Shown: positions 13,081-47,700 of the stretch, in pieces | How positions within the stretch are numbered: the stretch's first letter is position 1 | Layout of the letters: every line of letters begins with the position of its first letter | Source of the DNA: Acholoe squamosa | Taxonomy: Eukaryota; Annelida; Polychaeta; Phyllodocida; Polynoidae | Assembly (NCBI GenBank): GCA_949317995.1 | Contig: OX439035.1 | Coordinates: 6,902,427-6,966,426, forward strand | Reading direction: 5' to 3' | Length of the DNA stretch: 64,000 bases | Position numbers and translations under genes: made by a program | Notes under the pieces: generated by a model | What the model saw: the letters and a program-made list of their open reading frames with translations, nothing else | The model's database searches: none | What the model was told of the DNA's origin: nothing

Positions 13081-13930
13081 CTTAAGCTGCTCCAGCCCAA
13101 TACCATCCCCTGCCATTGGGTATTTTTAGCGACAGCCGGATGGCCTATATAGAATGCAGAGTGTATCGTGGGGTTTATGGGGTTTGGGAGGGGGGAAATG
13201 GACAGGTGGTTGTTGGAACCATGCGAAAGGGTCTGTTTTAGAGGGAGATGGACTAAAGTGCATCTGTCGGGACATAACCACCCAACCTCTGCATGAGTGA
13301 AAAGTATTATAGTCAAGGAACAAGTCATCGCCTCAGTGCTACAGGGATGTAAGTCTTCAGGATTTATCAGGATTTCCTGATTTCTGAAAATTTTGAATGC
13401 CATGTACTTTCCTTATACGAGTGGTAAAGAGGGATTTTTGGAAAAATAGAAGGCTTTTATATCAAGTAAATGTATGGCTTCCTGATTTTTGCCCATGCCT
13501 GACTTACATCACTGAGTGCAACAAGGTTGTATCTGCATAAGTTATATTTTATTGTATCTGCAAGTTTTGCAGGAGAGATAAAAGAAGTCTTGAAATTACT
13601 ATAGCACCAAGTGGACACAACCTTATTGCTCTGGGTTCTGTAGGCAGACATAGACAGAGCTTCAGTTCTTTCGTAGGTAGATAAGTAGATAAGGGGTATA
13701 TAAGGATGTTAAAACAGAAGAAAACTTAATTTTGCCAAAATATCAGTTACAACCTTGTTGCACTGAGGCGACGAAGTATATTTCCCTCTATTTCATGATA
13801 GCACTCCAGTTTCTATTCATATTGTAACGTAAAGCTGATGCACAATATTTTCTTTTTTAAAGATGCCATCACCTGATTTTTAAAGGTGAACACCGCTAGG
13901 TATATTCTAGTTCTGTTTTAACTGTTGTAT
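13081..13930. other. Non-coding, nothing recognised
   Basis: No supported gene. A minus-strand open stretch at 13044-13403 lacks domains and overlaps the end of a repeat. Confidence 0.4.
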
Positions 13931-13939
13931 AGTTATACA

Positions 13940-15905
13940 CCATGACAGTAGTAGTAGTGTGGTGCCAACAGCTGAGGGATGGACTATACAGCACTACAGT
14001 AGTAGTATTGTGGTGCCAACAGCTGAGGGATGGACTATACGGCACTACAGTAGTAGTATTGTGGTGCCAACAGCTGAGGGATGGACTATAGGACACTACA
14101 GTAGTAGTATTGTGGTGCCAACAGCTGAGGGATATACTATAGGACACTACAGTAGTAGTATCATGGTGCCAACAGCTGAGAGATGGACTATATGACACTA
14201 CAGTAGTAGTATTGTGGTGCCAACAGCTGAGGGATGGACTATAGGTGACTACAGTAGTAGTATTGTGGTGCCAACAGCTGAGGGATGTACTATAGCACAT
14301 TACAGTAGTAGTATCTTGGTGCCAACAGCTGAGGGATGGACTATAGCACATTACAGTAGTAGTATCTTGGTGCCAACAGCTGAGGGATGGACTATAGGGA
14401 ACTACAGTAGTAGTATTGTGGTACCAACAGCTGAGGAATGGACTATAGGTGACTACAGTAGGAGTAGTGTGGTGCCAACAGCTGAGGGATGGACTATACG
14501 GCACTACAGTAGTAGTAGTGTGGTGCCAACAGCTGAGGGATGGACTATACGGCACTACAGTAGTAGTATTGTGATGCCAACAGCTGAGGGATGGACTATA
14601 GGTGACTACAGTAGGAGTATTGTGGTGCCAACAGCTGAGGGATGTACTATAGCACATTACAGTAGTAGTAGTATCTTGGTGCCAACAGCTAAGGGATGGA
14701 CTATAGGATGCTACAGTAGTAGTATTGTGGTGCCAACAGCTGAGAGATGGACTATAGCACATTACAGTAATAGTATCTTGGTGCCAACAGCTGAGAGATG
14801 GACTATAGGACACTACAGTGGTAGTATTGTGGTGCCAACAGCTGAGAGATGTACTATAGGATACTACAATAGTAGTATTGTGGTGCCAACAGCTGAGAGA
14901 TGGACTATAGGACACTACAGTAGTAGTATTGTGGTGCCAACAGCTGAGAGATGGACTATAGGACACTACAGTAGTAGTATTGTGGTGCCAACAGCTGAGG
15001 GATATACTATAGGACACTACAGTAGTAGTATCATGGTGCCAACAGCTGAGAGATGGACTATATGACACTACAGTAGTAGTATTGTGGTGCCAACAGCTGA
15101 GGGATGGACTATAGGTGACTACAGTAGTAGTATTGTGGTGCCAACAGCTGAGGGATGTACTATAGCACATTACAGTAGTAGTATCTTGGTGCCAACAGCT
15201 GAGGGATGGACTATAGCACATTACAGTAGTAGTATCTTGGTGCCAACAGCTGAGGGATGGACTATAGGGAACTACAGTAGTAGTATTGTGGTACCAACAG
15301 CTGAGGAATGGACTATAGGTGACTACAGTAGGAGTAGTGTGGTGCCAACAGCTGAGGGATGGACTATACGGCACTACAGTAGTAGTAGTGTGGTGCCAAC
15401 AGCTGAGGGATGGACTATACGGCACTACAGTAGTAGTATTGTGATGCCAACAGCTGAGGGATGGACTATAGGTGACTACAGTAGGAGTATTGTGGTGCCA
15501 ACAGCTGAGGGATGTACTATAGCACATTACAGTAGTAGTATCTTGGTGCCAACAGCTAAGGGATGGACTATAGGATGCTACAGTAGTAGTATTGTGGTGC
15601 CAACAGCTGAGAGATGGACTATAGCACATTACAGTAATAGTATCTTGGTGCCAACAGCTGAGAGATGGACTATAGGACACTACAGTGGTAGTATTGTGGT
15701 GCCAACAGCTGAGAGATGGACTATAGGACACTACAATAGTAGTATTGTGGTGCCAACAGCTGAGAGATGGACTATAGGACACTACAGTAGTAGTATTGTG
15801 GTGCCAACAGCTGAGAGATGGACTATAGGACACTACAATAGTAGTATTGTGGTGCCAACAGCTGAGGAATGTACTATAGGGTACTACATTAGTAGTATTC
15901 TGGAG
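13940..15905. repeat. 51-bp minisatellite with 17-unit higher-order repeat
   Basis: About 38 units of 51 bp with core GTGGTGCCAACAGCTGAG and a variable GTAGTAGTAT segment. A 17-unit block is duplicated: matching positions are offset by 870 bp early (for example 14191 and 15061) and by 867 bp (17 x 51) after an extra AGT near 14663. Because 51 is divisible by 3, long frames stay open. One minus-strand frame (13896-15926, 676 codons) is uninterrupted and reads a 17-residue Ser/Thr/His/Cys/Trp repeat (SPSLSCWHHNTTTVVSY-like). It has no signal peptide, no recognised domain and no splice evidence, so I treat it as a by-product of the array. Confidence 0.9.
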
Positions 15906-16059
15906 CAGTAGACTGGCTGGCCGCATGGCGCCTGCTGCAGTGTGGGGTAAATGATATGCTCGGTGAGCAGCTCACCACTCTGTCCTGGTCTGTGCCTGGT
16001 CTCTGATCACTGGCATTGGATCGGTCCCCAGTGACCGTGAGCCACGCTATTCTACTTTA

Positions 16060-30800: not shown

Positions 30801-31164
30801 GACACTGTATTAAACACTAGTAAAATAAGAACATAGCAGTACAGGGTTTTCAAAGTAAATAGATTATACCAAAAGTGATCAGGTCAACAAAAAGGTACAC
30901 TTGTGCAGAGCCACCAGCATTTATCTCAAGTGCTGCTAGGAGAGTGTGCATATGGCTGATCCAGCCAATACACTGACTAAAGCTGAAATGATAAAAACTA
31001 TGTTCACAGAGAGGCGTAGTTGTTTCCCCCCGTGTTTTCATTGTCACTGGAGATGAAGCAGAATTGGCATCAGGGTGTAGACCTACGCTTTTTTCTCATA
31101 TTGAAGTAAGCCTATAGATGTTGAGGGGGAAAAGGGACATATTTGTCAGAGAGTTAAATATAAA

Positions 31165-31528
31165 TGTAATGGTTCGTATTGACTTATATGTTGGGTGGCT
31201 CTTTGGCTCGCTTACCACTAGATGTACCAACACAACACGAGTAGTTCGGGTTGGGCAAAGCCCCAGAAACCCCTACCTCTCGGGTAGGACTTTATTCAAT
31301 CTCTCTGATGACAAAGTATTAGCGTCTGGACTGGACCATGTCCAGTCCCCTTCTGCCGCTCGTCCGGCTCCTTAGTAGGAGCTGGACGCGAGGCATGGTG
31401 CTGCCCCCTCTTGTACCAACGAGGTATCGCAAAGCGACACCTAGCTAGCATAGAAGGAACAAGCACCACACGAACACGTCTCTCGGATGAACGGCACTAA
31501 TATATATACAATGATGCCGGCCCCTACA
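31165..31528 (-). repeat. 3' LTR (left copy)
   Basis: 364 bp, identical by eye to 43648-44011. In sense orientation it starts TGTAGGGGCCGG, has TATATATA about 20 bases in, a poly(A) signal AATAAA (plus-strand 31291-31296) and ends CCATTACA. It contains several hairpins, among them GGACTGGAC/GTCCAGTCC at 31328-31348. Confidence 0.95.
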
Positions 31529-31539
31529 CCACCCCCACT
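31529..31539 (-). promoter_or_regulatory. Polypurine tract
   Basis: The sense-strand sequence AGTGGGGGTGG directly abuts the 3' LTR, the position where plus-strand DNA synthesis is primed. It is purine-rich with two T interruptions. Confidence 0.75.
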
Positions 31540-32282
31540 AGACTTTACCTAGGGTTGTGTGTAATTAACAAGTAACTATTGTTGACTTTATACAGTGGTG
31601 TTATAAATAAATAGGTAAGTCTATATATACACAGTTCGTATTAAATATAGAACATTTAAGGGGCATTATAAGTTATATGTACACAATAAGGCATCATCGT
31701 ATATAACCCGAAGTGTTTATAAATAATAACAAAAATAGGAAGTGGCCCCTTATGGACCATCGACCTATGGTGATAATATTACACGTGTGTTATTATTAAA
31801 CATGAGACGCGACGAAGAATATTCGATGTGTAGTAAGGTGATATTGAAAAATTTTTACAATGTTTTTACCGACCCGAGGTGGGGTAAATAACCCGAAAAA
31901 ATTTTGACTTTTACTTACAAGAATATAATATACGATATAAAAAAAAATTTATACAAAATATGAAATATAGGTGTCCTACCAGGGTAGCAGGATCACCCTT
32001 ACAATATACCGGACTTCCGGCGAACCTGGAACGACTGGTTTCTGCAGCTCCATCCGGCGACATATGTGTGGTGGCAAACCACGTTGCTGTTATGATGTGC
32101 CCTGATGAAGATGGGAAGATGGAGACCCGGTTAGATGTTGTAGTCCATTGGGTGTTCGGGTTAGCGTCCATCCTCGCTGCAGGTTACGATCCAGGTATCA
32201 GGAGTCCAGCGTAAGGAACAGTGCCTCTGGCATATTAAATGCATTTACCCTCGGGTACCAGGAGACACCAACAGATGGACAC
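31540..32282 (-). other. Element 3' untranslated region
   Basis: About 740 bp, AT-rich, between the accessory ORF stop and the polypurine tract. No frame of note. It is far more AT-rich than the adjoining ORF. Confidence 0.6.
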
Positions 32283-35200
32283 TCAAAGATCTTCAGGATC
32301 TGTGTCCATCTTCTCAGCCGGCTCCACTGAGGCAGATGGAGCCGAGCTGCTACAGCTGCTCGTAGAGAGCGCCGCTGAAGCCTCGCTGGGAGTCTCGCTC
32401 CCCAAGCTCAAGGCCCTCATCACTGCGGACGGACTGTCCATTGCCTCGGATGCTGGTGCAGCAACCGTGGCAGTTGGGACAGCCCGGTTCCAAGTGGGGG
32501 GCGGGAGCAAGAGAGCTGCCGGAATCGGCGGAGCAGCCGGGACCGGTGGAGTGGCCAGGACCGGTGGAGTAGCCGGGGCTGGCGGGGCATCCGGGGGTAT
32601 CTCTGGAACGAAGATGAGAGACGACGGTAAGCCGTCCCACTCCTCCAGATGTTTCCCGAATGCCAGGAAAAACTTGAGGTCCGCCTCCTTAAATCGATGG
32701 ATATATCTGGAGTTTTCAGCTTCGTGAAACTCTTTAAGCTTTTCGGCTTCCTTCTGTTTTCGCCGGCAGGACTCGAGGGCCTCCTCGACCTTCTTCCTTT
32801 CCAGCTCCCTGATTTTATCTTCCTCCCGCCTCTGGATCTCGTAGACCAGATTGACGGTGGCTTCAGTCATCACACGCCAGTAGTCAACAGACTTCTGGCG
32901 GTGCAATGCCTGCCATTCTTCCATCAGCTCATTCTGGATCTGAACCGTTCGGACATCGCGGTGGTCGACGAACGTGTTCGGATCCTGAAGACCTGACAGG
33001 GTACCGGAGATTAGTTCCATTAGGGGTACCCGAGGACCTGTTGGTGGAACTATCACTGGTGGTGGCGCTGGGGCCTCCACTGAGACAGGCGGGGTGCCTG
33101 TTGGAGGAGCAGACGGGCCCTCTACCGTGATGCCTCCTCGGCCTCGGCCACCACCCGGAGAGCCTCGGGTGGACTCCAGCCCACCGCGGCCCCTACCACG
33201 AGCTTTGGCCCGGCCCAAGGGGGTAAGGACCTGCGACTCGGGTCCAGCCGGTCCCATTGAAGGGAACTTCGCCGCGTACTCACTGTACGTGGGGCGTTTG
33301 CCGGAGGATCCCTCTCCAGCCCACCAAGTAGAATACCCGGATGGGGGAGCGAGCAGTTCGCCCCCATCATCCTGGCCGCCAGAGGCTTCGCCCGGGCGTT
33401 GTTCCGCGGGTGCAGGTGTGGAGGTGGCTGGAGTCGCCGATGCGGTCGCCTGGCTACCCGACCTGCGGGCCTGGTTGCCAGGCATCTCCAGAGCCGAGAC
33501 CTGTTGTCCCGACTCGCGACGATCAGCTGGATTGGCTGGTCTGGGCTGGTCCTTGCCACCCGAAGGGCTCACGGACCGGTCTGCTCGGGTCCTCTTGGAA
33601 GCAGTAGTCGTGACTGTGCCTCCGTTTGGACCTTTAGAGCGGGCTTTGGCCTTCTCTCGCTTGTCGTCTCCTCGCCACTTTTTCACCTTCAGGTGCACCT
33701 CGCTGGGCATCCCGAATTTTGTGGACGAGGAGTTCGTCTGGAAGTAAGTCAGCAAGTTGCCGCTCTTCCACGAGCAGAATCCGGTCTCGAATGCCTGCTC
33801 TTTCACTTCCTTGATGCTCAGCGCGGACCAATTTGCAAGGAGCTCGCTGAAGCACTTGATGGCTCGTTTCCTGGTCTTCTCCAGGCCGATGCCATGGGCC
33901 TTCTGCAAATGCAGAGCCATGTCTCGGCGCCGGTGAGTGCTGAACGAGCCATCACAATGTTTACTCGGGCGGTCCCCGAGCACACACATCATCACAGGCT
34001 TGTGATGCATATGAAATTCAACGATGTGTCGAGCGAAGCGGGGCTTCGTCTCGAACATCTTCTCACCCGTGAGAGACAGCTGGCAAGACTCAAACGGGCA
34101 CCTTCGGCGGTTGCCGGTTGGTCCCCATTGGGTCATTGCCCACTGGACTTTCGTCCGGGCCTCGTAGCTGTAGATCGAGCCTAATTTGGACTTGAGCTGG
34201 TCAATCCAAATCAGGTAGAACTTGCGTACTGGCGTATCCGAGGGGCCGGACTTCATCCACTCCTCGTCATCGCTGTCACCGTCCTTATTGACGGCGCTCG
34301 GACACATATAATGGACTGTGTCGTAAGCACAGTCCGCGAAGCAGCGGGGAGTCCGTTCCTTGAACCCCTCGGCTGCATTCTTCCACATCCACTTCTGATT
34401 GTCGTCCTTGGGAACATCCGTGGTCATTTCTTCCCACGTTGTCACGGACTCCAAATCAGATTTGGCAGACTCGGGCAGCTCTGGATCGCTTTCGCTTTCC
34501 TCGCTGTCTGTGTATATGTCAGCTCCCCTACGGCCGGCTCGGCTGGAGGTGGTAGTACCAGTCGGAGCCTTGGTAGGGGACTTCGTCTTTGCACCCGACG
34601 TGCTGGCTGCAGAAGATGCAGTAACCGAGGTGGCTACCGTGGTGGTTGTAGTGGTGGGAGCGGGCGTCTTCGGTTTGCCCTTACCCCTCGGCTTGGTGGG
34701 GGGCGTGGGCTCTACCGGAGACGCTTTCGCTCCATTCTTCTTCTTCCGGCGCACAACCTTAGTCGGTTGGGCCGGAACTTCGGGACTGGAATCCGACTCG
34801 CGTCGGCTCCTGTCCCCTGTCCGAGGGCTCCTCCTTCCGCTGACTGGGGAGTCAGAGTCGGAAGAGATCTCTGTTTTTCGTTGGGCCTGCTGCTTGCGAT
34901 GGGCCCGGCGAGCTGCGGTGAGCTCCTTCTGCTGCTTGGCAAGCTCGATTCGCTTTGCCTCTACAGCAGCCTGCTGGCGTGAGATGTCCTCTTCAGAGAT
35001 CTCGCCAGGTGCCTCTGGGATGTCGGCAGCTGGGTCGGTCTCGGTCGTGGACCTCTCGACGGCGATGCGGACATCTTCAGCCTCCAGGTCGCTCTCAGTG
35101 AGAGGACCCTTGGGTGCAGGTTTACGGGTCAATCGCTTGACCCGGTCGGTTTCCACCGACGACAAGGTTACCGTGGAGTCTGTATCCATGTCGGATTCGG

Positions 35201-35789
35201 ACTCCCTTAACTCCGTGGCCTTCTGGATGATGCCCGCAGAGATCAAGACGGCTCGAGCTAAATTCTCGTTAGTCGCCATATTCTCCGCCAACTTTAGGTA
35301 GTTGCGGAGCCAAGAAACTGGCATGTTGTCAGCCAGCTCGTCACTACACGAGTCCATTACCATAGTTTTGAGTTCATCTGGTATGGGCTCGGGCACGCCC
35401 TGCTCCACCGCCATGGGCCCGCATCCGAACATGGAGGCGTGCATAGGGATGTACGTACCCCAGGAGGTATACACGATACCTTCCTGGCGATCGACGTGTG
35501 CTAGACGTCTGATCTGCGTCCTGAATCCCGGAGGATACATTGGAATGTCCAGGACATCCACTTTGCTACCCGAAGCGTCTGTTGTAGACGGGCGCTCCGG
35601 GCGTGGCGGGGGTGGAGGTGGCATCCTCTCCCGGTCGGTTGCCTCGGCCATAGCCGTGAGCGTCCGGGCGGCCTCCTCTGTCGAAGAATCCATAGATTCC
35701 TCGACCCGAGACGGGACCTTCGGGTCCTCGTCTTGTTCCAACGGAATGTTGGCTGTTTGACGCGCAGCGTCAATCGTTCCATGTGCCAT
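32283..35789 (-). CDS. Accessory ORF3, zinc-finger/RG-rich/coiled-coil protein
   Basis: An uninterrupted frame between pol and the 3' LTR, on the same strand as gag-pol. The ATG at 35789 has good context (GCCATGG). The frame is open a further seven codons to a TTG at 35810 and beyond. Residues below count from that TTG (1175 in all). Residues 80-200 look folded. Residues 200-480 are Ser/Pro/Lys-rich and disordered. Residues 485-640 hold two C2H2-like fingers: C571-x4-C576-x18-H595-x4-H600 and C609-x9-C619-x14-H634-x4-H639. Residues 866-893 are an RG-rich box. Residues 950-1055 form a charged coiled coil, and the tail is Pro/Ala-rich. No signal peptide, membrane helix or furin-type site was seen, so it is not an envelope. 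Visible features suggest nucleic-acid binding and oligomerisation. I do not recognise the family. Its GC content appears higher than that of gag-pol. Confidence 0.85.
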   Translation of the reverse strand: MAHGTIDAARQTANIPLEQDEDPKVPSRVEESMDSSTEEAARTLTAMAEATDRERMPPPPPPRPERPSTTDASGSKVDVLDIPMYPPGFRTQIRRLAHVDRQEGIVYTSWGTYIPMHASMFGCGPMAVEQGVPEPIPDELKTMVMDSCSDELADNMPVSWLRNYLKLAENMATNENLARAVLISAGIIQKATELRESESDMDTDSTVTLSSVETDRVKRLTRKPAPKGPLTESDLEAEDVRIAVERSTTETDPAADIPEAPGEISEEDISRQQAAVEAKRIELAKQQKELTAARRAHRKQQAQRKTEISSDSDSPVSGRRSPRTGDRSRRESDSSPEVPAQPTKVVRRKKKNGAKASPVEPTPPTKPRGKGKPKTPAPTTTTTTVATSVTASSAASTSGAKTKSPTKAPTGTTTSSRAGRRGADIYTDSEESESDPELPESAKSDLESVTTWEEMTTDVPKDDNQKWMWKNAAEGFKERTPRCFADCAYDTVHYMCPSAVNKDGDSDDEEWMKSGPSDTPVRKFYLIWIDQLKSKLGSIYSYEARTKVQWAMTQWGPTGNRRRCPFESCQLSLTGEKMFETKPRFARHIVEFHMHHKPVMMCVLGDRPSKHCDGSFSTHRRRDMALHLQKAHGIGLEKTRKRAIKCFSELLANWSALSIKEVKEQAFETGFCSWKSGNLLTYFQTNSSSTKFGMPSEVHLKVKKWRGDDKREKAKARSKGPNGGTVTTTASKRTRADRSVSPSGGKDQPRPANPADRRESGQQVSALEMPGNQARRSGSQATASATPATSTPAPAEQRPGEASGGQDDGGELLAPPSGYSTWWAGEGSSGKRPTYSEYAAKFPSMGPAGPESQVLTPLGRAKARGRGRGGLESTRGSPGGGRGRGGITVEGPSAPPTGTPPVSVEAPAPPPVIVPPTGPRVPLMELISGTLSGLQDPNTFVDHRDVRTVQIQNELMEEWQALHRQKSVDYWRVMTEATVNLVYEIQRREEDKIRELERKKVEEALESCRRKQKEAEKLKEFHEAENSRYIHRFKEADLKFFLAFGKHLEEWDGLPSSLIFVPEIPPDAPPAPATPPVLATPPVPAAPPIPAALLLPPPTWNRAVPTATVAAPASEAMDSPSAVMRALSLGSETPSEASAALSTSSCSSSAPSASVEPAEKMDTDPEDL

Positions 35790-35810
35790 GGCACCGGGTT
35801 CGACTTCCAA

Positions 35811-36309
35811 AATTAATTGGCAAGTTTTGTTGGACTCCTCCCGAAGGATTCGTCCAACAGAAAGGCTTTTGGGGGGTTAGCTAGGCTAACACGACAGCTA
35901 CAGGCTGTATAACCGCCGACAAATAACTAGAGCAAAAACGGGTGGCGTCTAACCACCACGAGTCCGCTCTAGTTATGACCAGTATGACGTCAGACCTCTC
36001 GTCTCGCGAGATCCCGCCATGGCTATCCGGTGACCTAGTTCCGCGCTTTCCCGCCACACCAGCAGCGCCACCTAGGGAACTAGATCCGAACCAACATTCG
36101 ACTCGACATGTGAGACGCGGCCTACTACCCGAGTGCTATCGTCTGGAGCTTAGCGGTGTATACAACGCTTCAAAGCGAATGTACCGGTTAATCCGACCGC
36201 CACTCACGGGATACAGCCACCCGGGGAGGGCGCGTTCGACATCTCAGGCCGTGGAACGTATGTTGCCTGCCTATGGCGGACAACACGCAGCAGCTCGTTG
36301 TGTACTGAG
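35811..36309 (-). promoter_or_regulatory. Pol-ORF3 spacer with stem-loops
   Basis: About 500 nt separate the pol stop from ORF3. The spacer folds locally into at least three stems: TAACTAGAGC/GCTCTAGTTA (35924-35933 with 35966-35975) enclosing GGTGG/CCACC; GTTAGC/GCTAAC (35876-35890); and GTTGGAC/GTCCAAC (35829-35835 with 35852-35858), whose sense-strand tip is a TCC-TTCG-GGA tetraloop. The last lies about 40 nt upstream of the ORF3 ATG. A role in internal initiation, splicing or a subgenomic promoter is inference. Confidence 0.4.
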
Positions 36310-39300
36310 TTAGGTTACAGCAGACCTCAACCGGGGGCTGCGTCTAACGCCTTCGGTTAGCATTTTATTTTTCCCGGCTTTACGTACGGCCTTTTCTGGA
36401 TCTCGCTTAGTCAGAGCGGGACCCTTCCCATACGTAATGCCTTCACTCAGCGAGACTTTCTTCCATTTCTTACGATTAGGTCGTTTCCTGGCCTTCGTCT
36501 TCTTTTTTACTATAACCTCGTCTCCCGGCGTCTTTCTCGGCCGGCCTCTAGGGCGTTTCGTCAGTACTACCACGCTCGGTCCGCTAGGGACAGATTCAGG
36601 TGGTTTGTAACCGAACTCCCTCTCCGCCTCTTCGCGTCCCTTCCAGGGCCGAAGTTTTCCGACATTTGTCTTCCATTTCCTACCCGTCAGGCAGTCCTCT
36701 ATCATCACCGTGGACTCGGAGATGACGCGAACGATTTTAAATGGACCTTCCCAAGGCGTTACGAGCTTCAGCTTATCCAGCGGCTCGTAGTACCTTAGTA
36801 CTTTGTCCCCAACATTAAAACGAATTCGTTTAGCATTGGTGTCATAGCCCACCTTCTGCCACTTCGCACTCTTCAGCAGTTCTTTCCGAACGGCCTCGTA
36901 TGCCTGTTTGAACCGGTCCCTTAATGACTCTACAAACAGCACCGTGCAGGGCGCCTCCGGGTCTATTCCAACCACTCCATACACTAAGTCGGCGGGCATT
37001 ATGATGTCCTCGCCGAACACTAGCATGTTTGGGGTGCAGTTAGTTGATGAATGGACAGTGTTGTTGTAGGCATGTACTACAAACTCGCACTGTTCATCCC
37101 AGTCATCCTGGTGGGTATTAACCAGGGGCTTTAGTACTTGTATGAGGGTTCTATTGAAGCGTTCTACCTGCCCATCCGACTGTGGTCGGTACGGGTTTGT
37201 TCGGGTCTTACAAATGGCTAGGTAATGGCACATTTCCTGCCAAAGTTCTGACTCGAACTCCCTTCCCTGGTCACTGTGCATCATAAGGGGAACACCCAAA
37301 TGCAGCACCCAGCCTTTCACAAATGCCTCCGCGCATGTGGCGGCTTTGTGGTTGGGAAGGGGGAACACCCGAGTGTACTTAGTATAATAGTCAGTTACGA
37401 CCATCATACAAGTATTGTCTCGCGGCGTCGTCTTAATCCCACTGATGATGTCTATCGCTATTCGAGCAAATCTGACACCAAACAATTCCTGTGATAAGGG
37501 TTGCTTACCCAGGCCGGGTCCCGGTTTGTTTTTACAACAATCCGGGCAAGTGGCGATCCACCGGAGCAGGTCGCCTCTCATACTGGGCCAGTAGTAACGC
37601 CTTTGTAGACGCTCTATCGACCTTCTCTTACCGAAATGGCCACTCGTTTGGTGGCCATGGCAATAATACATGATATCCCTCCTCATCGGGGCGGGTATCA
37701 CTATTTGCAACAGCCTACCGTTGGTGGGAGTTGTCTTCCACCTACATAGTATGCCGTCTCGGATCTCTAGCTCGGCCCATTGAGCCAGCAACCGCCTCGC
37801 TTCCCTATCCTCCAGGGAAACTAGAGGCCTTGCCGGTTTAATGCCTGACCGTAGGTATTCCATTATGCGCGCAGTGGTGGGGTCTGACTGTTGAAACTTC
37901 TTGATGGTCTCCGGGGACCAATCGAGATAGCTGCATACAGCCTCCTCCCAGGGGATACGGGGGGTGGTATAATTAAATACCAACCCGGCTACCACAGCAT
38001 TGTGGGCCCCGCAGTCTTCACATGTGGCATTTTGGCACCTTCGGATAGGCCGTCTTGACAAGGCATCCGCATTGATGTGTTTAGCACCGGGTCGGTGCTC
38101 TATTTGTTTATGCTCTAATCCGAATTCGGATAGGTGAGCTAACCAACGTCCAATCATCCCCTCGGCGTCCTTGAAGTTAAGGAGCCACCTAAGAGACGAA
38201 TGGTCTGTTCTTAAAGTAAAGTCACTTCCCCAAAGGAAATGCTTAAACTTCTTCGTATACACCACCACAGCGAGGAGTTCTCGCTTGGTGGTACAATAAT
38301 TTCGCTGTGTCTTGCTTAACGTGTTGCTAGCAAATGCTATTGGCACTTCGACTCCCTCTTGGACCTGAGAGAGAGCTGCCCCAATCGCATCATTGCTCGC
38401 ATCGGTGTCTAAGATGAAATGTCCCTCGGGAGTGGGATATTTCAACACGGGTGTATTCCTAAATAAATCTTTTATTTTATTAAAAGACTCTTCTTGCTCG
38501 CTGGTCCATGGGAATGGGTCCCGTGCCCTACCCGGGGTCCAGTGAGCTAAGCACTGCATGGGGAAGCTGACACGAGAGTAATTCGGTATGAAATCACGAT
38601 AATAGGAGCAAAATCCTAAAAATGATCTCACCTCCTTAGCACTCGTGGGTCTTTCCCAATTTTCTACAGCTTCTAATTTTTCCGGATCCGCACTTACCCC
38701 GTTAGGAGTAATGATCCTTCCCAAGTATGTAATGGTTTTCTTAAACAAATTACATTTCTTGGGTTTAAGTTTAAGACCGTTTGATAGTATCCGGTCGAGG
38801 ACTAATTGCAGATTTGCCAGGCATTCCTTGAATGACTTGCCGAACACGACCACATCATCCAAGTAAACCAGGCATTTCTTCCACAAAAGGTCACTCAGTA
38901 AGGATTCCATCATAGCCTCGAATGTAGCGGGGGCGTTACACAATCCGAAGGGTAGGACATTATACTCAAACAACCCCATATGACTGGAGAATGCTGTCTT
39001 CTCCTTGTCTTTGGGGTGCATTGGTATTTGCCAATATCCGGACTGTAAATCCAAGGTACAGAACCATTGGTTTCCGCCCAAGCTATCTAAAGTCTCGTCT
39101 ATCCTTGGTAAAGGATACGAGTTCTTTTTTGTTATACCGTTCAATTTCCGGTAGTCGACACAAAAGCGGATTGTACCGTCTTTCTTAGTAGTCATACAAA
39201 CAGGGCTGGACCAGGGACTCGAGCTAGGCACGATTACCCCTAGGTCCAACTGTTTTTGTATTTGCTCTTCACAGATTAACTTCTTTTTAAGGGGAAGTCT

Positions 39301-40545
39301 ACGATACGGGATTTTAAAAGGTTTCTCGCTGCCCACATCTATGGTGTGCAACACCTTATCGGATCTACCCACCGGGCCTCCTTCCCTACCAAAAGCACCT
39401 TCGTACTTTTGTAGAAGTCTCGCTAGGCAATCCTTATCGTCCGTATTCTTTAAATCTGACTGATCAATCAGCTTTTGGAATTCTTCATCCATAGGATGCT
39501 GACTAACTGGGTTTAGTGGTTTGTTAAATTTAGCCTCGGCGACATGTTCTACCGAACTCATCCTTCCAACACTGTCGCCTCGCCTCAAATAAACCACTGA
39601 ACCACTTCGGTTAGTTATGGGTAATACGGACCAAGCTGCATTAGCCACTAATGTATCCACTGAGTCTAACCCGATGCTTGACAAATACACCGTGTCGGGT
39701 TCGTAGACTCCAGCTTCATTCCTCTGAGCCATGGATCCGCCACAAAGGACATCGCAAGTGGTACCCGGTGGGATCTTCACCGTATGTACCACTGCTGCGA
39801 CCGAAGACACCTGTCTCAATACGCATTGGACATGCAAGCCATACGGGCTCCGTATATCCATACTACCGTCCCTCGGGTCCAAGACGGCCCCGTATAAGCT
39901 TGCAAAATCCAATCCGAGGATTCCGTCATCACTAACCTCTGCTATAGTTGGCGAAAGAACAAACTCTTTGCCTCCTATATGGATAGGCATAAACGTCCTA
40001 CCAAATGTACGCATACTGCTTCCGTCGGCCGTGCAAGCATTTACCCCCGTTTTGAGGTTCTCATGGCTGCCGGCCACCGAATCGAAGAATCTTTTGGACA
40101 CACATGAATGACTAGCTCCAGTATCCACCAAGAATTCCCCCACCCGGCCTTCCACAGATATGGGTACATACCACCGTCTCCCCCCTAAAGGCGAGGGGTT
40201 ACTGGTAAACTGGTGAAAGTCTCCCGAATCACCAAGATTCAATCCGAGTCCTCTCAGGAATTCCAGACACGGATGACTTGGGGGAAGGCGTGTCCCACAC
40301 ACTCGAATCAACTCTTTGATCCATCCTTCCTCTCCCCTAGTGCGGCCACTCGCCTCCATATGATCACTCCTGCACATATCAACACTAGGGTCCCTGGCCC
40401 CGGCCGAGGTGCAGGGGTGCGCACCCTCAGCCACCCGGCCTCCAGGTGTAATTGACTCGAAATCTTCCACCGGGATACCCCCGGTAGCATTTTGGCATTC
40501 GTTCCCACTCGGGGCCATGTCAGATGCCGTTGACACAACCCCCAC
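36310..40545 (-). CDS. pol: Pol polyprotein: protease, RT, RNase H, integrase
   Basis: 1411 residues counted from a GTG at 40545, which is probably not a true start since the frame overlaps the gag end and suits -1 frameshifting. Domains in order: aspartic protease with DTGAS at 141 and ILGLDF near 209; reverse transcriptase about 400-620 with LDLQSGYW near 498 and YLDD at 561-564; RNase H with D713, E756, D781 and D827; integrase with H965-x4-H970-x29-C1000-x2-C1003, then D1032, D1092 and E1128 (D-D-35-E spacing), and a GPF motif at 1267-1269. All catalytic residues are present. The C-terminal tail carries an AT-hook (RPRGRPRK, 1331-1338) and a basic patch (1347-1363) in place of a chromodomain. 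The reading frame is intact throughout, which supports a recently active element. Confidence 0.95.
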   Translation of the reverse strand: MGVVSTASDMAPSGNECQNATGGIPVEDFESITPGGRVAEGAHPCTSAGARDPSVDMCRSDHMEASGRTRGEEGWIKELIRVCGTRLPPSHPCLEFLRGLGLNLGDSGDFHQFTSNPSPLGGRRWYVPISVEGRVGEFLVDTGASHSCVSKRFFDSVAGSHENLKTGVNACTADGSSMRTFGRTFMPIHIGGKEFVLSPTIAEVSDDGILGLDFASLYGAVLDPRDGSMDIRSPYGLHVQCVLRQVSSVAAVVHTVKIPPGTTCDVLCGGSMAQRNEAGVYEPDTVYLSSIGLDSVDTLVANAAWSVLPITNRSGSVVYLRRGDSVGRMSSVEHVAEAKFNKPLNPVSQHPMDEEFQKLIDQSDLKNTDDKDCLARLLQKYEGAFGREGGPVGRSDKVLHTIDVGSEKPFKIPYRRLPLKKKLICEEQIQKQLDLGVIVPSSSPWSSPVCMTTKKDGTIRFCVDYRKLNGITKKNSYPLPRIDETLDSLGGNQWFCTLDLQSGYWQIPMHPKDKEKTAFSSHMGLFEYNVLPFGLCNAPATFEAMMESLLSDLLWKKCLVYLDDVVVFGKSFKECLANLQLVLDRILSNGLKLKPKKCNLFKKTITYLGRIITPNGVSADPEKLEAVENWERPTSAKEVRSFLGFCSYYRDFIPNYSRVSFPMQCLAHWTPGRARDPFPWTSEQEESFNKIKDLFRNTPVLKYPTPEGHFILDTDASNDAIGAALSQVQEGVEVPIAFASNTLSKTQRNYCTTKRELLAVVVYTKKFKHFLWGSDFTLRTDHSSLRWLLNFKDAEGMIGRWLAHLSEFGLEHKQIEHRPGAKHINADALSRRPIRRCQNATCEDCGAHNAVVAGLVFNYTTPRIPWEEAVCSYLDWSPETIKKFQQSDPTTARIMEYLRSGIKPARPLVSLEDREARRLLAQWAELEIRDGILCRWKTTPTNGRLLQIVIPAPMRRDIMYYCHGHQTSGHFGKRRSIERLQRRYYWPSMRGDLLRWIATCPDCCKNKPGPGLGKQPLSQELFGVRFARIAIDIISGIKTTPRDNTCMMVVTDYYTKYTRVFPLPNHKAATCAEAFVKGWVLHLGVPLMMHSDQGREFESELWQEMCHYLAICKTRTNPYRPQSDGQVERFNRTLIQVLKPLVNTHQDDWDEQCEFVVHAYNNTVHSSTNCTPNMLVFGEDIIMPADLVYGVVGIDPEAPCTVLFVESLRDRFKQAYEAVRKELLKSAKWQKVGYDTNAKRIRFNVGDKVLRYYEPLDKLKLVTPWEGPFKIVRVISESTVMIEDCLTGRKWKTNVGKLRPWKGREEAEREFGYKPPESVPSGPSVVVLTKRPRGRPRKTPGDEVIVKKKTKARKRPNRKKWKKVSLSEGITYGKGPALTKRDPEKAVRKAGKNKMLTEGVRRSPRLRSAVT

Positions 40546-43500
40546 TAGTTTTCCACATCTGTGGAATCCCTAGCATTCTCCCTTTCTACGCCGTCGTCTT
40601 CGGCTTCATAGAAGGCAGCCATTACCGGCTTAGTAGCGGTACATTCAGATGAGTAGTGTCCCATGCGCTGGCACCTGAAACACTTAACCGTTCGGCGATC
40701 CACCCGGGGTCTTTGCCGATTGGCTTGGATGGCATCTGTAATTTTCTTACACATGTCTTCCAGAAGTTTGGTCATGTCCGGGGACTGAATCTTCACTTTG
40801 TCAGTGCTTACAATGGACTTGACCGCCTTATCGACAGCCTTCGGGTCACTCTTGACCTCGGATGAAGGTCTAGAGTCCCTTTGTTTATTGAAAGATTTCC
40901 TGGGAATATACTTCCTACCTGAAGTATTCTTCCTTAATTGCATCGAACAGAAGGTGCCGTCTTCCTGTTCGATATCAATCAATTCGAAGTCGTCTGATGG
41001 AGTATCGACCTCCGACTGCTGGGTCACCGATGCTAGGGGTACCAAGCCGCTGGCATTAGGTATGTCCCCAGCTAACATAGCTCGCTTCTTCACGGCCATA
41101 TCTATACCATTAAAAATGCCGTGTAGTGTTATGCCCTCCTTCCAGGCATCCCTCGCTGCTATTTGTTCATCTCGGTCTCTTAGACCCTTGACGAATTGAG
41201 TGATCAAATCGTCCATATACCAGTCCTGGTTTTCAGTACCGGGTCTGGCCTTACTTAGCAGGGCATGGAGTTCCATACCGTATGCTCTGAAAGCTTCATT
41301 CGGCTTCTGTGTGCGTTTCTTAAAACGGACCATCGGGTCTTCCTTGACCATATTACATAACAGTCCACTAGCAGTTTCTACTAACTGCTCAAAACTCCCA
41401 ACGAGGCCGTACCAGGTTCGCCATTGCTCTACAGCCATGCGACCCGGCCCGCCTTTCAGACATCTCACCAGATGTGGCTTGGCCTCGTATGGGGTCCATC
41501 CATTACAGTTCATCACATCGATGAAATCTTCAAACCACTCTTTCCATGGTCGAGTACCGTCATATTCTTTAGGAATAACGGCTACCCTTCGGGCAGAATT
41601 GGGAGCATACATCAATCTAGTGCATTGCTGTTTGCTCCATTCAATCGCCTTGGTTTCATTCAAGGTCCGATTGCCCCCTATACCACCGAAGCTAGAATTG
41701 CCAGGTGGAGGCGGTGGTGGAGGTTGAGTATACGTCCACTGTGTACCACCGTGGTTCGTATAACTCGCACTACCTTGGTTGGGGCCGGTACCCGAGGTAC
41801 CACTATAGCTTGTGGCACCCGAAGCAGCGCCCCCCCCTTGCGCGCCTTGGTACCCGCCATCGGATGGCTGGTTTCCCGTTGACTGGCCGCCATCGTTTGA
41901 TGGATTCGGTTGGGTGTTGTCATTACCAGCACCCAGCCCCGGGTCGTTACTAGGATCCACATGAATGTGGAACCCACTGGTCTCCGCACTACTGTCGGAA
42001 GCCTCTCTAGGGGTATAGTCCGGGTCCAGGTTGTGGACTATGGGCACCTCACTTATCCGGACTCTACTAGTTCGGCCATGCTTATCCTGGGTTCTGATGT
42101 AAACACCCCCTTGATCTACGTTCCGCGAAGCATTATCATTTACAAAAGGATTATACTGCGGATTCTTCGGTGTAGAACAGGAGACCGGGTCGCCCTGTTT
42201 CACGAACGTCGAGTTCGGGTTTATCACCCTACTCGCCGGAGGGGCATGTGTTTCCTCTTGCTCCTGTAAATAACTCTCCATAGCGGACTTATTTATTGTG
42301 AGGGTAGCTACGTCTGTAGTCAGGTTTCGCTGTTCCTCCCTAAGCTGTGCGTTTTCTGCCAAGATTTCGGATCGAATCTTTTCATTTTCAGCCACAGCTC
42401 GGTTTCTTTCTTCTTGGGCGATCATTGCCTCTCGCTTAAAAGTATCCTTAAGTAGGCGGTACTTTTCACCCTTCTCTTTCTGAGACCTGTTATATTCAGT
42501 AGTCTCCTTCCTAATCTCGGCTTGTTCCGAGACCATCTTGGCTTCTGTCTCAGCTTTCCGGAGTTGAAGTTTCTTAAGCTTCTCCTCCATTGCGTCCAAC
42601 TCAGTTTGTAATTTATTTACATCCCGAGCCTTAGCAACCTCCTCGGCTCTAGCCTTGTCGATTGCTCTAAGTTTATTGGCTTCCTCGATTTCCAACTCAG
42701 CCAGCCTCTTTTCTTTTTCCTGTGCGTCTCTTTCCTTCCGCTCCAACCGATGGGATACGGAGGATAGACGATATTTGAGGTCGGATTCTTTTAGAATCGC
42801 CTCCTGCTCCACGGATCGTAATTTTCCGATCCGGGACTTAGCTTCCTCCTCTATTTTGGATTGGGCTAACATGAATTGTTCATGTTGCCTCTTTGCCTGT
42901 AACTCTACCTGTTCCTTGGCTTTCAAATAGGCCTGAGTATTTTTATACCCGGGACCCATCCGACGTCCGTAGATAGACTTGCGATTGCCTCCAGGGTAAA
43001 ACATGGAGTCAGACAAGCCTTCGTCTAGAGATCGGCCTAGGTGATGCCTTTCCGAGCTTTTCGGTCCGGTACCACTAGGCTTATCTTTTGATTTCGCGTC
43101 TGGGACTATTGCGTCCCTTTTGGTTTTACCATCGTCGCTGTCATGATCCGACGATGTCATTAGTGGGGCTACTTCGGTTCCACCACCGGGTGCTGAACCC
43201 TGGGGGGTTGCAGTACGCTGCATAGGGCTTTGTGCAATTGGTGTACCCAAGCCGCTAGCCGAGCCTGTTGGTACCATAGGACCTAGCTGGCGTCTGCTAG
43301 TTATAACTTGGGACCAATCGCTCAAGTCTAAAGTTGGGGGTCTTAACACTCCCCTGAACAATCCGGTATCCGGTACTCCTGTCTGGGGTGTAGCCGGATA
43401 CAATTTTACGATGCCATCTCTGGTGGCATTGTCCCTAAGGTCGGGTGTAGAAAAAATATTTCGTACACCCTCCTGATTAAACATTTGTTGTTGACCGGGT

Positions 43501-43604
43501 TTCCAGTCTAACAACAGATGCTGGGATGTGTAATCATCCTCTTCGAATCCCTCTAGCCCAGGGCTGGGGGGATCCGCTTCGGGTTTCCCGAGGCTTTCGG
43601 CCAA
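40545..43604 (-). CDS. gag: Gag polyprotein with long coiled coil and CCHC knuckle
   Basis: The frame gives 1019 residues from a TTG at 43604. The first ATG is Met41 at 43484 (979 residues, weak context), and upstream the frame stays open through the primer site into the LTR as far as 43694. Gag forms the virus-like particle and binds the RNA genome. Visible parts: a Ser/Pro/Gly-rich N-terminus, a long Lys/Glu-rich coiled coil about 220-450, a Gly/Asn/Pro-rich linker 500-640 with a polyproline run, a capsid-like helical region about 675-850 (WKEWFEDFIDVMNCNGW), and a CCHC knuckle CFRCQRMGHYSSEC at 975-988. The frame ends at TAG 40547-40545, overlapping pol. It is longer than most Ty3/gypsy Gags owing to the coiled-coil and linker parts. 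Confidence 0.9.
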   Translation of the reverse strand: MAESLGKPEADPPSPGLEGFEEDDYTSQHLLLDWKPGQQQMFNQEGVRNIFSTPDLRDNATRDGIVKLYPATPQTGVPDTGLFRGVLRPPTLDLSDWSQVITSRRQLGPMVPTGSASGLGTPIAQSPMQRTATPQGSAPGGGTEVAPLMTSSDHDSDDGKTKRDAIVPDAKSKDKPSGTGPKSSERHHLGRSLDEGLSDSMFYPGGNRKSIYGRRMGPGYKNTQAYLKAKEQVELQAKRQHEQFMLAQSKIEEEAKSRIGKLRSVEQEAILKESDLKYRLSSVSHRLERKERDAQEKEKRLAELEIEEANKLRAIDKARAEEVAKARDVNKLQTELDAMEEKLKKLQLRKAETEAKMVSEQAEIRKETTEYNRSQKEKGEKYRLLKDTFKREAMIAQEERNRAVAENEKIRSEILAENAQLREEQRNLTTDVATLTINKSAMESYLQEQEETHAPPASRVINPNSTFVKQGDPVSCSTPKNPQYNPFVNDNASRNVDQGGVYIRTQDKHGRTSRVRISEVPIVHNLDPDYTPREASDSSAETSGFHIHVDPSNDPGLGAGNDNTQPNPSNDGGQSTGNQPSDGGYQGAQGGGAASGATSYSGTSGTGPNQGSASYTNHGGTQWTYTQPPPPPPPGNSSFGGIGGNRTLNETKAIEWSKQQCTRLMYAPNSARRVAVIPKEYDGTRPWKEWFEDFIDVMNCNGWTPYEAKPHLVRCLKGGPGRMAVEQWRTWYGLVGSFEQLVETASGLLCNMVKEDPMVRFKKRTQKPNEAFRAYGMELHALLSKARPGTENQDWYMDDLITQFVKGLRDRDEQIAARDAWKEGITLHGIFNGIDMAVKKRAMLAGDIPNASGLVPLASVTQQSEVDTPSDDFELIDIEQEDGTFCSMQLRKNTSGRKYIPRKSFNKQRDSRPSSEVKSDPKAVDKAVKSIVSTDKVKIQSPDMTKLLEDMCKKITDAIQANRQRPRVDRRTVKCFRCQRMGHYSSECTATKPVMAAFYEAEDDGVERENARDSTDVEN
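40548..40554 (-). promoter_or_regulatory. Putative -1 frameshift site GGAAAAC
   Basis: In the gag frame the mRNA reads G-GAA-AAC followed immediately by the gag UAG. Re-pairing one base back gives GGA-AAA-C and enters the pol frame, which is open from 40569. The pattern fits X-XXY-YYZ with an imperfect P-site triplet, comparable with the known retroviral GGAUUUA site. Termination-reinitiation at the overlapping TAGTG is the alternative. Confidence 0.55.
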
Positions 43605-43631
43605 TGTGGCCGCGCACCACCCCCGAACCGA

Positions 43632-43646
43632 CTGGTCACGGCACCA
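43632..43646 (-). promoter_or_regulatory. Primer binding site, tRNA-His type
   Basis: The sense-strand sequence TGGTGCCGTGACCAG starts one base inside the 5' LTR. It is complementary to a tRNA 3' end CTGGTCACGGCACCA. The GTCACGGC acceptor strand is typical of metazoan tRNA-His. Confidence 0.75.
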
Positions 43647-43647
43647 G

Positions 43648-44011
43648 TGTAATGGTTCGTATTGACTTATATGTTGGGTGGCTCTTTGGCTCGCTTACCA
43701 CTAGATGTACCAACACAACACGAGTAGTTCGGGTTGGGCAAAGCCCCAGAAACCCCTACCTCTCGGGTAGGACTTTATTCAATCTCTCTGATGACAAAGT
43801 ATTAGCGTCTGGACTGGACCATGTCCAGTCCCCTTCTGCCGCTCGTCCGGCTCCTTAGTAGGAGCTGGACGCGAGGCATGGTGCTGCCCCCTCTTGTACC
43901 AACGAGGTATCGCAAAGCGACACCTAGCTAGCATAGAAGGAACAAGCACCACACGAACACGTCTCTCGGATGAACGGCACTAATATATATACAATGATGC
44001 CGGCCCCTACA
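43648..44011 (-). repeat. 5' LTR (right copy)
   Basis: 364 bp, identical by eye to the left LTR. It should carry the element's promoter. TATATATA lies about 20 bases from its sense-strand start, and AATAAA is at plus-strand 43774-43779. Confidence 0.95.
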
Positions 44012-44202
44012 TAAATGTTGCTATCAGCTTAGACTAAACCCGTTTCTTTGATGCACAATTCCAATCAGGGAGATTTTGACACCTCCTGATGGGGTGTAAA
44101 AGGCGTTAACCCCTTGTGGGGGGGGGGGCAAAAATAAAAATAAAATAATGACCACCTTACATGAATAAAATATTTGTGAATCCACTCTCTAAGACTGTAT
44201 TC

Positions 44203-45270: not shown

Positions 45271-45894
45271 TTGAACTTTGTCATATATATTATACTCTCC
45301 CATTTTAATCACCTGAGTGCTTGCTAGATGGCTTATCCTTAATCCATCTCACTGCTGCTTTGACAAGCACTAAAAGTCTAATGCACACTTAACCATAGGG
45401 CACACCTGCTAGAGGTAGGTGTTTAGAGAGTAGACTGTACTCAGCGGTATAGCTCCATTTCAAGAATTGACTTCTCATCATATAACTGCCAAAGGGTTGT
45501 TTGGACTGCAGAGAGAAAGCTATCAGTTTCCCTGATCTTTCTTCTAGGAGTTTGGTCCCTTTAACATGCCACCCTCAAAAATCAGTTTAAAAAGAAGAAT
45601 TCATAAGCGAAATAAAATTTAGACTGGGAAAGAACTTAGTACAATGTAATTGGTATCTCCCTGTGTAATATAGATATGACTAATGGATCAATAGCATCTG
45701 TTCCTATACTACTCAGACATATAATATTCTGCTTCTTTTTGTATACCACTCAAAGATTGCCTTTGATAGCAAATGCCATATAATCCCTATAATACTCATA
45801 GGAAAATGTGAGTGCGCAAAGGTAGAGGGTGACATACATGTGTGAGTACAGGTATAATGGTGCTGCTTTGATGCTCACAGATCTAATGACCCTA

Positions 45895-47700
45895 GCCAAT
45901 GTCAATGCCACGTTCCCTATACTACTCACAGAATGCCCTTGGCCAAAGTCACCTTTCCCCACACTACTCACAGTATGACCTTAGCCAATGTCATCTTTCC
46001 CTATACTACTCACAGAATGACCTTGGGCAATGTCATCTTTCCCTACACTCCTCACAGAATGACCTTGGGCAATGTCATCTTGCCCTATACTACTCACAGA
46101 ATGACCTTGGACAATGTCATCTTTCCCTACACTACTCACAGAATGACCTTGGCCAAAGTCACCTTTCCCCACACTACTCACAGTATGACCTTAGCCAATG
46201 TCATCTTTCCCTATACTACTCACAGAATGACCTTGGACAATGTCATCTTTCCCTACACTCCTCACAGAATGACCTTGGTCAATGTCATCTTTCCCTATAC
46301 TACTCACAGAATGACCTTGGGCAATGTCATCTGTCCCTAGACTACTCTCAGAATGACCTTAGTCAATGACATCTTGCCCTATACTACTCACAGAATGACC
46401 TTGGTCAATGTCATCTTGCCCTACACTCCTCACAGAATGACCTTGGACAATGTCATCTTTCCCTATACTACTCACAGAATGACCTTGGGCAATGTCATCT
46501 TTCCCTATACTACTCACAGAATGACCTTGGACAATGTCATCTTTCCCTATACTACTCACAGAATGACCTTGGGCAATGTCATCTGTCCCTAGACTACTCT
46601 CAGAATGACCTTAGTCAATGACATCTTGCCCTATACTACTCACAGAATGACCTTGGTCAATGTCATCTTGCCCTACACTCCTCACAGAATGACCTTGGAC
46701 AATGTCATCTTTCCCTATACTACTCACAGAATGACCTTGGGCAATGTCATCTTTCCCTATACTACTCACAGAATGACCTTGGACAATGTCATCTTTCCCT
46801 ATACTACTCACAGAATGACCTTGGGCAATGTCATCTTTCCCTATACTACTCACAGAATGACCTTGGGCAATGTCATCTTTCCGTATACTACTCACAGAAT
46901 GACCTTGGGCAATGTCATCTTTCCCTATACTACTCACAGAATGACCTTGGACAATGTCATCTTTCCCTATACTACTCACAGAATGACCTTGGGCAATGTC
47001 ATCTGTCCCTAGACTACTCTCAGAATGACCTTAGTCAATGACATCTTGCCCTATACTACTCACAGAATGACCTTGGGCAATGTCATCTTTCCCTACACTA
47101 CTCACAGAATGACGTTAGCCAATGCCATCTTGCCCTATACTACTCTCAGAATGACCTTAGTCAATGTCACCTTTCCCTACACTACTCACAGAATGACCTT
47201 GGGCAATGTTATCTTTCCCTACACTACTCATAGAATGACCTTAGCCAATGCCATCTTGCCCTATACTACTCACAGAATGACCTTGGGCAATGTCATCTTT
47301 CCCTATACTACTCACAGAATGACCTTGGGCAATGTCATCTGTCCCTAGACTACTCTCAGAATGACCTTAGTCAATGACATCTTGCCCTATACTACTCACA
47401 GAATGACGTTAGCCAATGCCATCTTGCCCTATACTACTCTCAGAATGACCTTAGTCAATGTCACCTTTCCCTACACTACTCACAGAATGACCTTAGTCAA
47501 TGTTATCTTTCCCTACACTACTCACAGAATGACCTTAGTCAATGTCATCTTTCCCTACACTACTCACAGAATGACCTTAGTCAATGTCATCTTTCCCTAC
47601 ACTACTCACAGAATGACCTTAGTCAATGTCATCTTTCCCTACACTACTCATAAAAAAAAGTCATAGCCAATCCTATCTTTCCCTACACTACTCACAGAAT
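45895..47700. repeat. 42-bp minisatellite with variable higher-order blocks
   Basis: About 43 units of 42 bp: ACTCACAGAATGACCTTGGG, CAATGTCATCTTTCCCTATA, CT. A marker variant (CTGTCCCTAGACTACTCTCA) recurs near 46333, 46585, 47005 and 47341, so blocks of 6, 10 and 8 units have been copied. Since 42 is divisible by 3, frames stay open on both strands. They repeat 14 residues, carry no domains, and are taken as by-products. Confidence 0.9.

Follow-up and report, generated by a model that had tools for sequence, protein, structure and literature searches.

A predicted zinc-finger accessory gene, distinct from env, has long been kept in one Ty3/gypsy clade

What is the long intact reading frame that lies between pol and the 3' long terminal repeat (LTR) of a Ty3/gypsy element in the annelid Acholoe squamosa? 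We examined it in a stretch of 64,000 nucleotides (the window; GenBank assembly GCA_949317995.1, contig OX439035.1, positions 6,902,427 to 6,966,426, forward strand), in which a complete element occupies positions 31165-44011 on the minus strand in the order gag, pol and an intact third gene, here called ORF3. Sequence comparison leads us to regard ORF3 as a real, long-kept, non-envelope accessory gene of one Ty3/gypsy clade, with predicted zinc fingers. The original prediction had placed an intact frame of ~1,170 residues between pol and the 3' LTR and its coordinates proved exact, the strand, which it did not give, being minus. The open frame covers 32283-35810 (1175 amino acids (aa) from a TTG) and, from the first ATG (context GGTGCCATGG), 35789-32283 (1168 aa); residues are numbered from this ATG, which is the 1175-residue numbering minus 7. 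Stops make up 2.6% of codons in the five remaining frames of the stretch, which puts the chance of 1168 open codons in a row at ~10^-13.

Copies of ORF3 were sought in the same genome (1.48 Gb, 63 contigs). A 131-aa piece spanning the fingers gave at least 150 matches, and all 150 listed were 100% identical in protein, 130 of them, by hand count, lying in frames that stay open for 1197 codons or more; as these are the best scorers, the copy number is a lower bound. None of the 39 best matches scored had a stop in ORF3, which says little because mostly long frames were read. Variants were counted in 30 copies, made up of the first 30 rows of finger matches, in which three that were also among the best matches were replaced by three others with long frames; one of the latter spans only half of ORF3. 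As all 30 had been found by finger match, the finger query (residues 553-683) was masked. Variants shared by at least two copies comprised 10 nonsynonymous and 34 synonymous changes (dN/dS ratio, omega, 0.13; p 2e-10), and single-copy variants 33 and 50 (omega 0.29), as expected for young copies. In pol, using the part from reverse transcriptase (RT) to integrase (IN) in 20 copies, there were 6 nonsynonymous and 20 synonymous shared variants (omega 0.14), with four stops among single-copy variants. ORF3 is under purifying selection, with a constraint about as strong as that on pol, and the selection argued for from intactness is thus borne out by a dN/dS across copies that is not near 1. A larger set of 39 copies, eight of them ranked by whole-protein match, gave shared variants of 10 to 39 (omega 0.11); the 30-copy set leaves out these eight and L035. 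The tightest regions were the N-terminal 300 residues (shared variants 0 to 13) and residues 901-1060 (omega 0.11), while values for the stretch before the fingers (0.54, n 6) and for the tail (0.45, n 13) were not significant, the counts per region being small.

Alignment of four homologues, namely those of the window, L059, L074 and L075 (described below), showed a conserved core of ~150 residues, which runs from S-D-D-E-x-W through a stretch with a Tyr in all four to a Cys pair with A-R-H-[IL]-[IV]-E-x-H, a second Cys pair, R-R and H-x(3,4)-H (Table 1). This core holds the two C2H2-like fingers of the original prediction, whose eight Cys and His (there given in the 1175-residue numbering) are all present and recur as ligands in the homologues. 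Each finger has two Cys and two His at finger-like spacing and these are conserved, with the second Cys of finger 2 matched by eye rather than in one alignment column, and L074 having C-x4-C...H-x4-H in this finger. Searches of Pfam, NCBIfam and PDB returned nothing significant for ORF3, and no zinc-finger profile was matched. With a 165-aa C-terminal piece as sole query, two uncharacterised families gave E 0.003-0.004, which falls short of their cut-offs; PDB sequence matches at E 0.04, 0.67 and 0.62 were taken as chance. Outside the core the protein is mostly low-complexity, basic and rich in Ser, Pro and Thr, and only ~80-190 in the N-terminal part appears ordered by eye. Further towards the C-terminus, F-x3-F-x6-W-x-G lined up in all three sequences that reach so far and may be a short motif common to the homologues, the pairwise matches being weak (E 0.03 to 4.8).

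The claim that ORF3 is not an envelope gene also stood. Hydropathy revealed no signal peptide or membrane anchor, the highest 19-residue mean in the window protein being 1.41, within a Pro/Ala tract, and a hydropathy scan, made with no dedicated predictor, found neither a hydrophobic N-terminus nor a transmembrane-like stretch in any of three ORF3 homologues. Likewise, no Pfam env family was matched, and the profile search (HMMER, not HMM-HMM) pointed to neither an ordinary env nor a host gene. Two other predicted features fared less well. An RG-rich box does exist (~864-886), but its RG count was reached by 58 of 500 shuffles and L074 contains no RG. The predicted C-terminal coiled coil was not recovered, the best heptad score of 8.3 (residue 266) falling short of 9.6, the 95th percentile of shuffled maxima, on a simple purpose-made score that parts of Gag 274-448 pass.

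Residues 440-780 of ORF3 had no match among 5.8 billion proteins (1899 candidates), and nor did the two-sequence alignment A2 (scored over the 8000 candidates with the most words in common); viral contigs yielded no match to ORF3 and none to pol. With protein searches giving no matches, the only route to ORF3 homologues led through pol. A protein search with pol returned 1429 proteins, and among the 120 listed, few of them named, the best 19 were 60-67% identical over 89-100% of pol. A pol alignment identified L059, a contig of 13.4 kb that is filed under a Calditrichota metagenome-assembled genome and that we infer to be a eukaryotic contaminant. Its pol frame of 1586 codons is 48% identical to the window pol in the best segment, its Gag matches the window Gag from capsid to knuckle (E 7e-17), and the end of the contig repeats its first 91 bases, as expected from LTRs collapsed in assembly. 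An ORF3 of 1051 aa lies 666 nt downstream of its pol, 27% identical to the window ORF3 over the finger core (E 7e-6) with a weak second match at the C-terminal W-D-G motif (E 0.07). Fifteen pol relatives were found in genome contigs, and of the 14 scanned only L059 has the ORF3 core; 10 of the other 13 end within 1.7 kb of the pol match, so that its lack in these is no evidence of absence. In one of the pol-bearing contigs, filed as Limnohabitans (L063:5458-9454), frames of 503 and 727 codons without an ORF3 core follow pol. Within the L059 pol frame, apparently in the part that separates protease from RT, a repeat (L059:2429-2768) is present in five copies at intervals of 57-60 bp.

We then used the L059 ORF3 as a query in the genome of the window, where it matched nine places significantly (E 5e-13 to 3e-8), none of them among the ORF3 places listed for the window family. 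One, L075, is a rearranged copy in which the ORF3 core accompanies an opposite-strand pol fragment around the integrase that is 57% identical to the window pol. A second of the nine, L074, used as query gave at least 72 further core matches (73 of 6375 candidates scored), 22 of them in frames of 1009-1013 codons, of which 20 were stop-free. Likewise, the L075 integrase matched at least 105 places (105 of 22337 candidates scored) at 98-100% identity, many in frames of 1570 codons. For twenty of the 72 listed core matches an integrase match lay upstream on the same strand, at a distance of 2154-2172 nt in 19 cases and of 1657 nt in the remaining one, against a chance expectation of 0.015; no pair had another orientation, and 15 of the 20 had the 1009-1013 frame. 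This spacing shows that a second multi-copy family in the same genome bears ORF3, mostly intact and in the same place. The other 52 listed core matches had no integrase among the matches listed, and a further ORF3 family, with matches to about residues 139-286 of L074 and frames of up to 983 codons, likely exists.

A homologous gene therefore occurs in related elements, both in L059 and in the second family, as the original prediction had asked. In a quick maximum-likelihood tree of 53 pols, the window fell into a 20-row clade (support 100). The L075 fragment, spanning 28% of the columns, grouped with P0032 and P0035 in a neighbouring group, the wider join being supported at 83 only, and L059 stood with P0041 outside both groups but within a 38-row clade (support 95). 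ORF3-bearing elements thus bracket the pol clade and by parsimony ORF3 was present in its ancestor, so that the gene is probably ancestral to the clade; independent gains from a common source in these lineages are possible.

L074 (G000:C10:27363765-27365552) differs from the element-borne copies in its surroundings. It is an intact ORF3 homologue of 596 aa with an extra N-terminal C2H2-like finger, its frame was found full length once among the 73 matches listed, and the other 72 are 29-36% identical over the core. Within the 3 kb read around it, no gag or pol match was better than E 0.08. An acceptor-like TTCCTTTTTCAG/GG stands 67 nt before its first in-frame ATG, with a pyrimidine share of 0.89 that exceeds the 99th percentile of its AGs, and a poly-A signal follows 148 nt past the stop. 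On these features L074 resembles the final coding exon of a gene of the host. Capture of a host gene had been named as a result that would overturn the original prediction; no host-gene profile was matched, but a single-copy, host-gene-like homologue does exist, and because of it host capture is a possible origin of ORF3. A host zinc-finger gene that survives as L074 may have supplied the clade with ORF3, or L074 may be an ORF3 that the host took over. The single full-length copy among those listed, the lack of gag or pol matches within 3 kb, the acceptor-like site and the poly-A signal all speak for such an exchange, which we hold to be a real possibility at a little under an even chance; either direction would fit the data, which cover one species and 3 kb around L074.

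What might ORF3 do? We tentatively favour, with confidence that stops somewhat short of even, a regulator that binds RNA in the nucleus and is itself the product of a spliced mRNA. By analogy it would work like CERV, which is needed to export the genomic RNA of the C. elegans Gypsy/Ty3 element Cer1 (PMC10309623), or like Rev of complex retroviruses, descent from either not being implied. The subgenomic mRNA for ORF3 would be spliced from a donor close to the 5' end to an acceptor 137 nt upstream of the ORF3 ATG. The protein would enter the nucleus, would bind the element's own RNA through the finger pair and basic linkers, and would there allow the export or expression of unspliced genomic RNA. 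We favour such a role because any element relying on splicing faces the problem that Cer1 has to solve. The 5' LTR holds one donor-like GTG/GTAAGC (GT near 43698), the only GT[AG]AG in the first 600 sense nt, and the gap between pol and ORF3 holds an acceptor-like CACCCGTTTTTGCTCTAG/TTAT (AG ending near 35927) with no ATG between it and the ORF3 ATG. The pyrimidine share of this acceptor is 0.78, compared with 0.67 at the 95th percentile of AGs in the element, and the most pyrimidine-rich gap acceptor lies 137 nt before the ORF3 ATG in the window and 86 nt in L059, again with no ATG intervening in either. Together these sites would fit a spliced ORF3 mRNA, the acceptors being suggestive only. 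The env of errantiviruses is made from a spliced mRNA, and so is CERV in Cer1.

Several results weigh against this nuclear RNA role. By chance about one donor-like site would be expected in 600 nt, L059 has eight GT[AG]AG matches in 1.9 kb from which no one donor stood out, and the last 230-280 nt before ORF3 hold no ATG, so any acceptor there would pass the no-ATG test. No classical leucine-rich export signal was matched in three of three ORF3 homologues, whereas CERV has a candidate one; two counts of basic nuclear-signal motifs in the window protein stand little above those of shuffled sequences, 42 and 65 of 500 shuffles reaching them; and the homologues do not have the RG box in common. 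Furthermore, the reported domains of CERV, compared by description only, differ from those of ORF3, and AlphaFold models of the finger region from two-row alignments were uninformative (mean pLDDT 34.3 and 38.7).

The same fingers, with one more in L074, the acidic SDDEEW patch and the basic linkers would also suit a protein that, bound to chromatin or to the cDNA-integrase complex, guides entry into the nucleus or selects where the element integrates. This is unlikely on present evidence: eight 3' flanks, seven of them host flanks and one a tandem element copy, share no sequence with one another, and each of C1 to C17 has ORF3 places among those listed, both being weak tests. We would give no more credence to a role in countering host silencing by piRNA or chromatin, or in activating the LTR in a Tat-like or anti-silencing manner. 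Here the family is young and numerous, with all 150 listed places identical over 131 aa and the window LTRs identical, so the element escapes silencing somehow, and a regulatory role has been proposed for the accessory protein of plant Retand elements (PMC11963269). Set against this, ORF3 has no Pfam similarity to any known suppressor, and the long conservation of its core fits a role on the element's own RNA equally with a host-directed arms race.

A structural or packaging protein of the particle is less probable again. A size close to that of pol and fingers that likely bind nucleic acid would fit it, but Gag is itself equipped with a CCHC knuckle and with coiled-coil segments, and ORF3 is separate, possibly with its own mRNA. 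Reading ORF3 as a decayed or highly divergent envelope or fusogen is highly improbable and is contradicted by the hydropathy of all three homologues, by the finger core kept instead, and by the lack of a Pfam env match.

Turning to the element as a whole (Table 1), a search of its pol against solved structures found Ty3 closest (E 1.4e-111), and the element has the hallmarks of Metaviridae, with TG..CA LTRs, a 4-bp TTTA duplication (4-6 bp in the family), a CCHC gag and the order PR-RT-RH-IN (protease, RT, RNase H, integrase). A GPF/Y motif is present as WEGPF in the window pol, with W1265, G1267 and P1268 invariant across 19 aligned pols. Assignment to Troyka was rejected, Troyka being described with a 3-bp duplication, CG..CG ends, no GPF/Y and mostly a single Gag-Pol (PMC12440569).

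Table 1. Positions of the element's parts and of ORF3 features in the window
Feature	Position	Strand	Remarks
5' LTR	43648-44011	-	364 bp, TG...CA, identical to 3' LTR
Putative primer binding site	43629-43646	-	TGGTGCCGTGACC...; directly inside 5' LTR
gag frame	40545-43604	-	listed 1019 aa from TTG; coiled-coil segments within 274-448, capsid-like part, CCHC knuckle
pol frame	36310-40545	-	1411 aa; PR, RT, RNase H, H2C2 zinc domain, integrase (Pfam)
pol-ORF3 gap	35810-36309	-	~500 nt, contains stops
ORF3, third gene	32283-35789	-	1168 aa from first in-frame ATG
Acidic motif SDDEEW	34257-34274	-	residues 506-511; SDDExW in 4/4 aligned homologues
Finger 1 (C564, C569, H588, H593)	34011-34100	-	Cys pair and H-x4-H in 4/4; L059 has C-x2-C
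Finger 2 (C602, C612, H627, H632)	33894-33986	-	four ligands in 3/4; L075 without last His
RG-rich box	33132-33200	-	residues 864-886; not shared
C-terminal charged region	32610-32927	-	residues 955-1060; motif F-x3-F-x6-W-x-G, F1040 to G1053
Polypurine tract	31529-31541	-	sense GTGGGGGTGGTG immediately before 3' LTR
3' LTR	31165-31528	-	364 bp, identical to 5' LTR
Target-site duplication TTTA	31161-31164		other copy 44012-44015

Over 43484-43694 the frame of gag is already open within the 5' LTR; its first in-frame ATG, in poor context, is near 43484, 120 nt past the listed TTG; a non-AUG start or a spliced leader are candidate explanations for the start of Gag. The pol frame is open from 40569 and overlaps the end of gag by ~24 nt (40545-40569) in another frame, as for a frameshift. 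Elsewhere in the genome, L008 (G000:C17:140570-156576) contains two ORF3 matches 12,482 bp apart, with the primer-binding leader directly after the 3' LTR of the first copy, which indicates two elements in tandem sharing one LTR. Beyond the element, the window holds a 42-bp minisatellite at 45788-47300 (at least 34 copies in the part searched), starting ~1.8 kb from the 5' LTR, and a tandem repeat with SLSCWHHNTTTVV-like units at 13896-15926, with long open stretches on both strands (676 aa minus; 283 and 275 aa plus), which looks like a minisatellite with no evidence of a gene.

Although non-envelope third genes are known from LTR retrotransposons, few have been followed through divergent families, and for few is the role known. 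In the present case, one genome contains at least two multi-copy families with homologous intact ORF3 genes together with a single-copy host-like homologue, and a divergent relative lies outside it. With this material one can ask whether proteins for RNA export or against silencing have arisen repeatedly within Ty3/gypsy elements, and whether genes move from host to element or the other way. The full scenario, in which the clade has long carried an undescribed zinc-finger gene that would regulate its own nuclear RNA in an independent Rev- or CERV-type manner and was exchanged with the host by way of L074, is doubtful when taken as one. No published description of ORF3 was found in the literature searched, subscription papers and Repbase lying outside it.

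Among known accessory genes, CERV resembles ORF3 in being a non-Env frame between pol and the 3' LTR, with a cysteine-rich finger-like part and a basic motif proposed as a nuclear signal; however, CERV is 517 aa, its exons 1-3 share the gag frame, and it is described with leucine-zipper, G-protein-like and ring-forming domains and with no obvious homology outside nematodes (PMC10309623). Several families of bdelloid rotifer elements, among them Vesta and Juno, also carry a non-Env third frame after pol, but these encode GDSL esterase/lipase, DEDDy exonuclease or small transmembrane or coiled-coil proteins (PMC5408684), whereas the window ORF3 matches no enzyme family, and a bdelloid-type enzyme (GDSL or DEDDy) was rejected as no catalytic domain was matched in Pfam. 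TRP28 of plant Retand elements is likewise an extra frame in a long region between pol and the 3' LTR, with predicted DNA binding and unknown function, but it runs antisense to gag and pol, occurs in plants, and the main text of its description contains the term "zinc finger" 0 times (PMC11963269). The planarian Burro elements are gypsy-like animal elements with accessory domains and frames; unlike the window element, they exceed 30 kb and hold many domains in one huge polyprotein, with an env-like region in frame between gag and pol (PMC6431247). In Drosophila, sORF2 of the MDG1 group is a non-Env accessory protein of Gypsy-type retrotransposons, but one of ~70 aa, transmembrane, fusogen-like and usually upstream of gag (PMC11952523). 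Among these accessory genes ORF3 is a new protein family, set apart from the bdelloid proteins, TRP28 and CERV by their reported domains.

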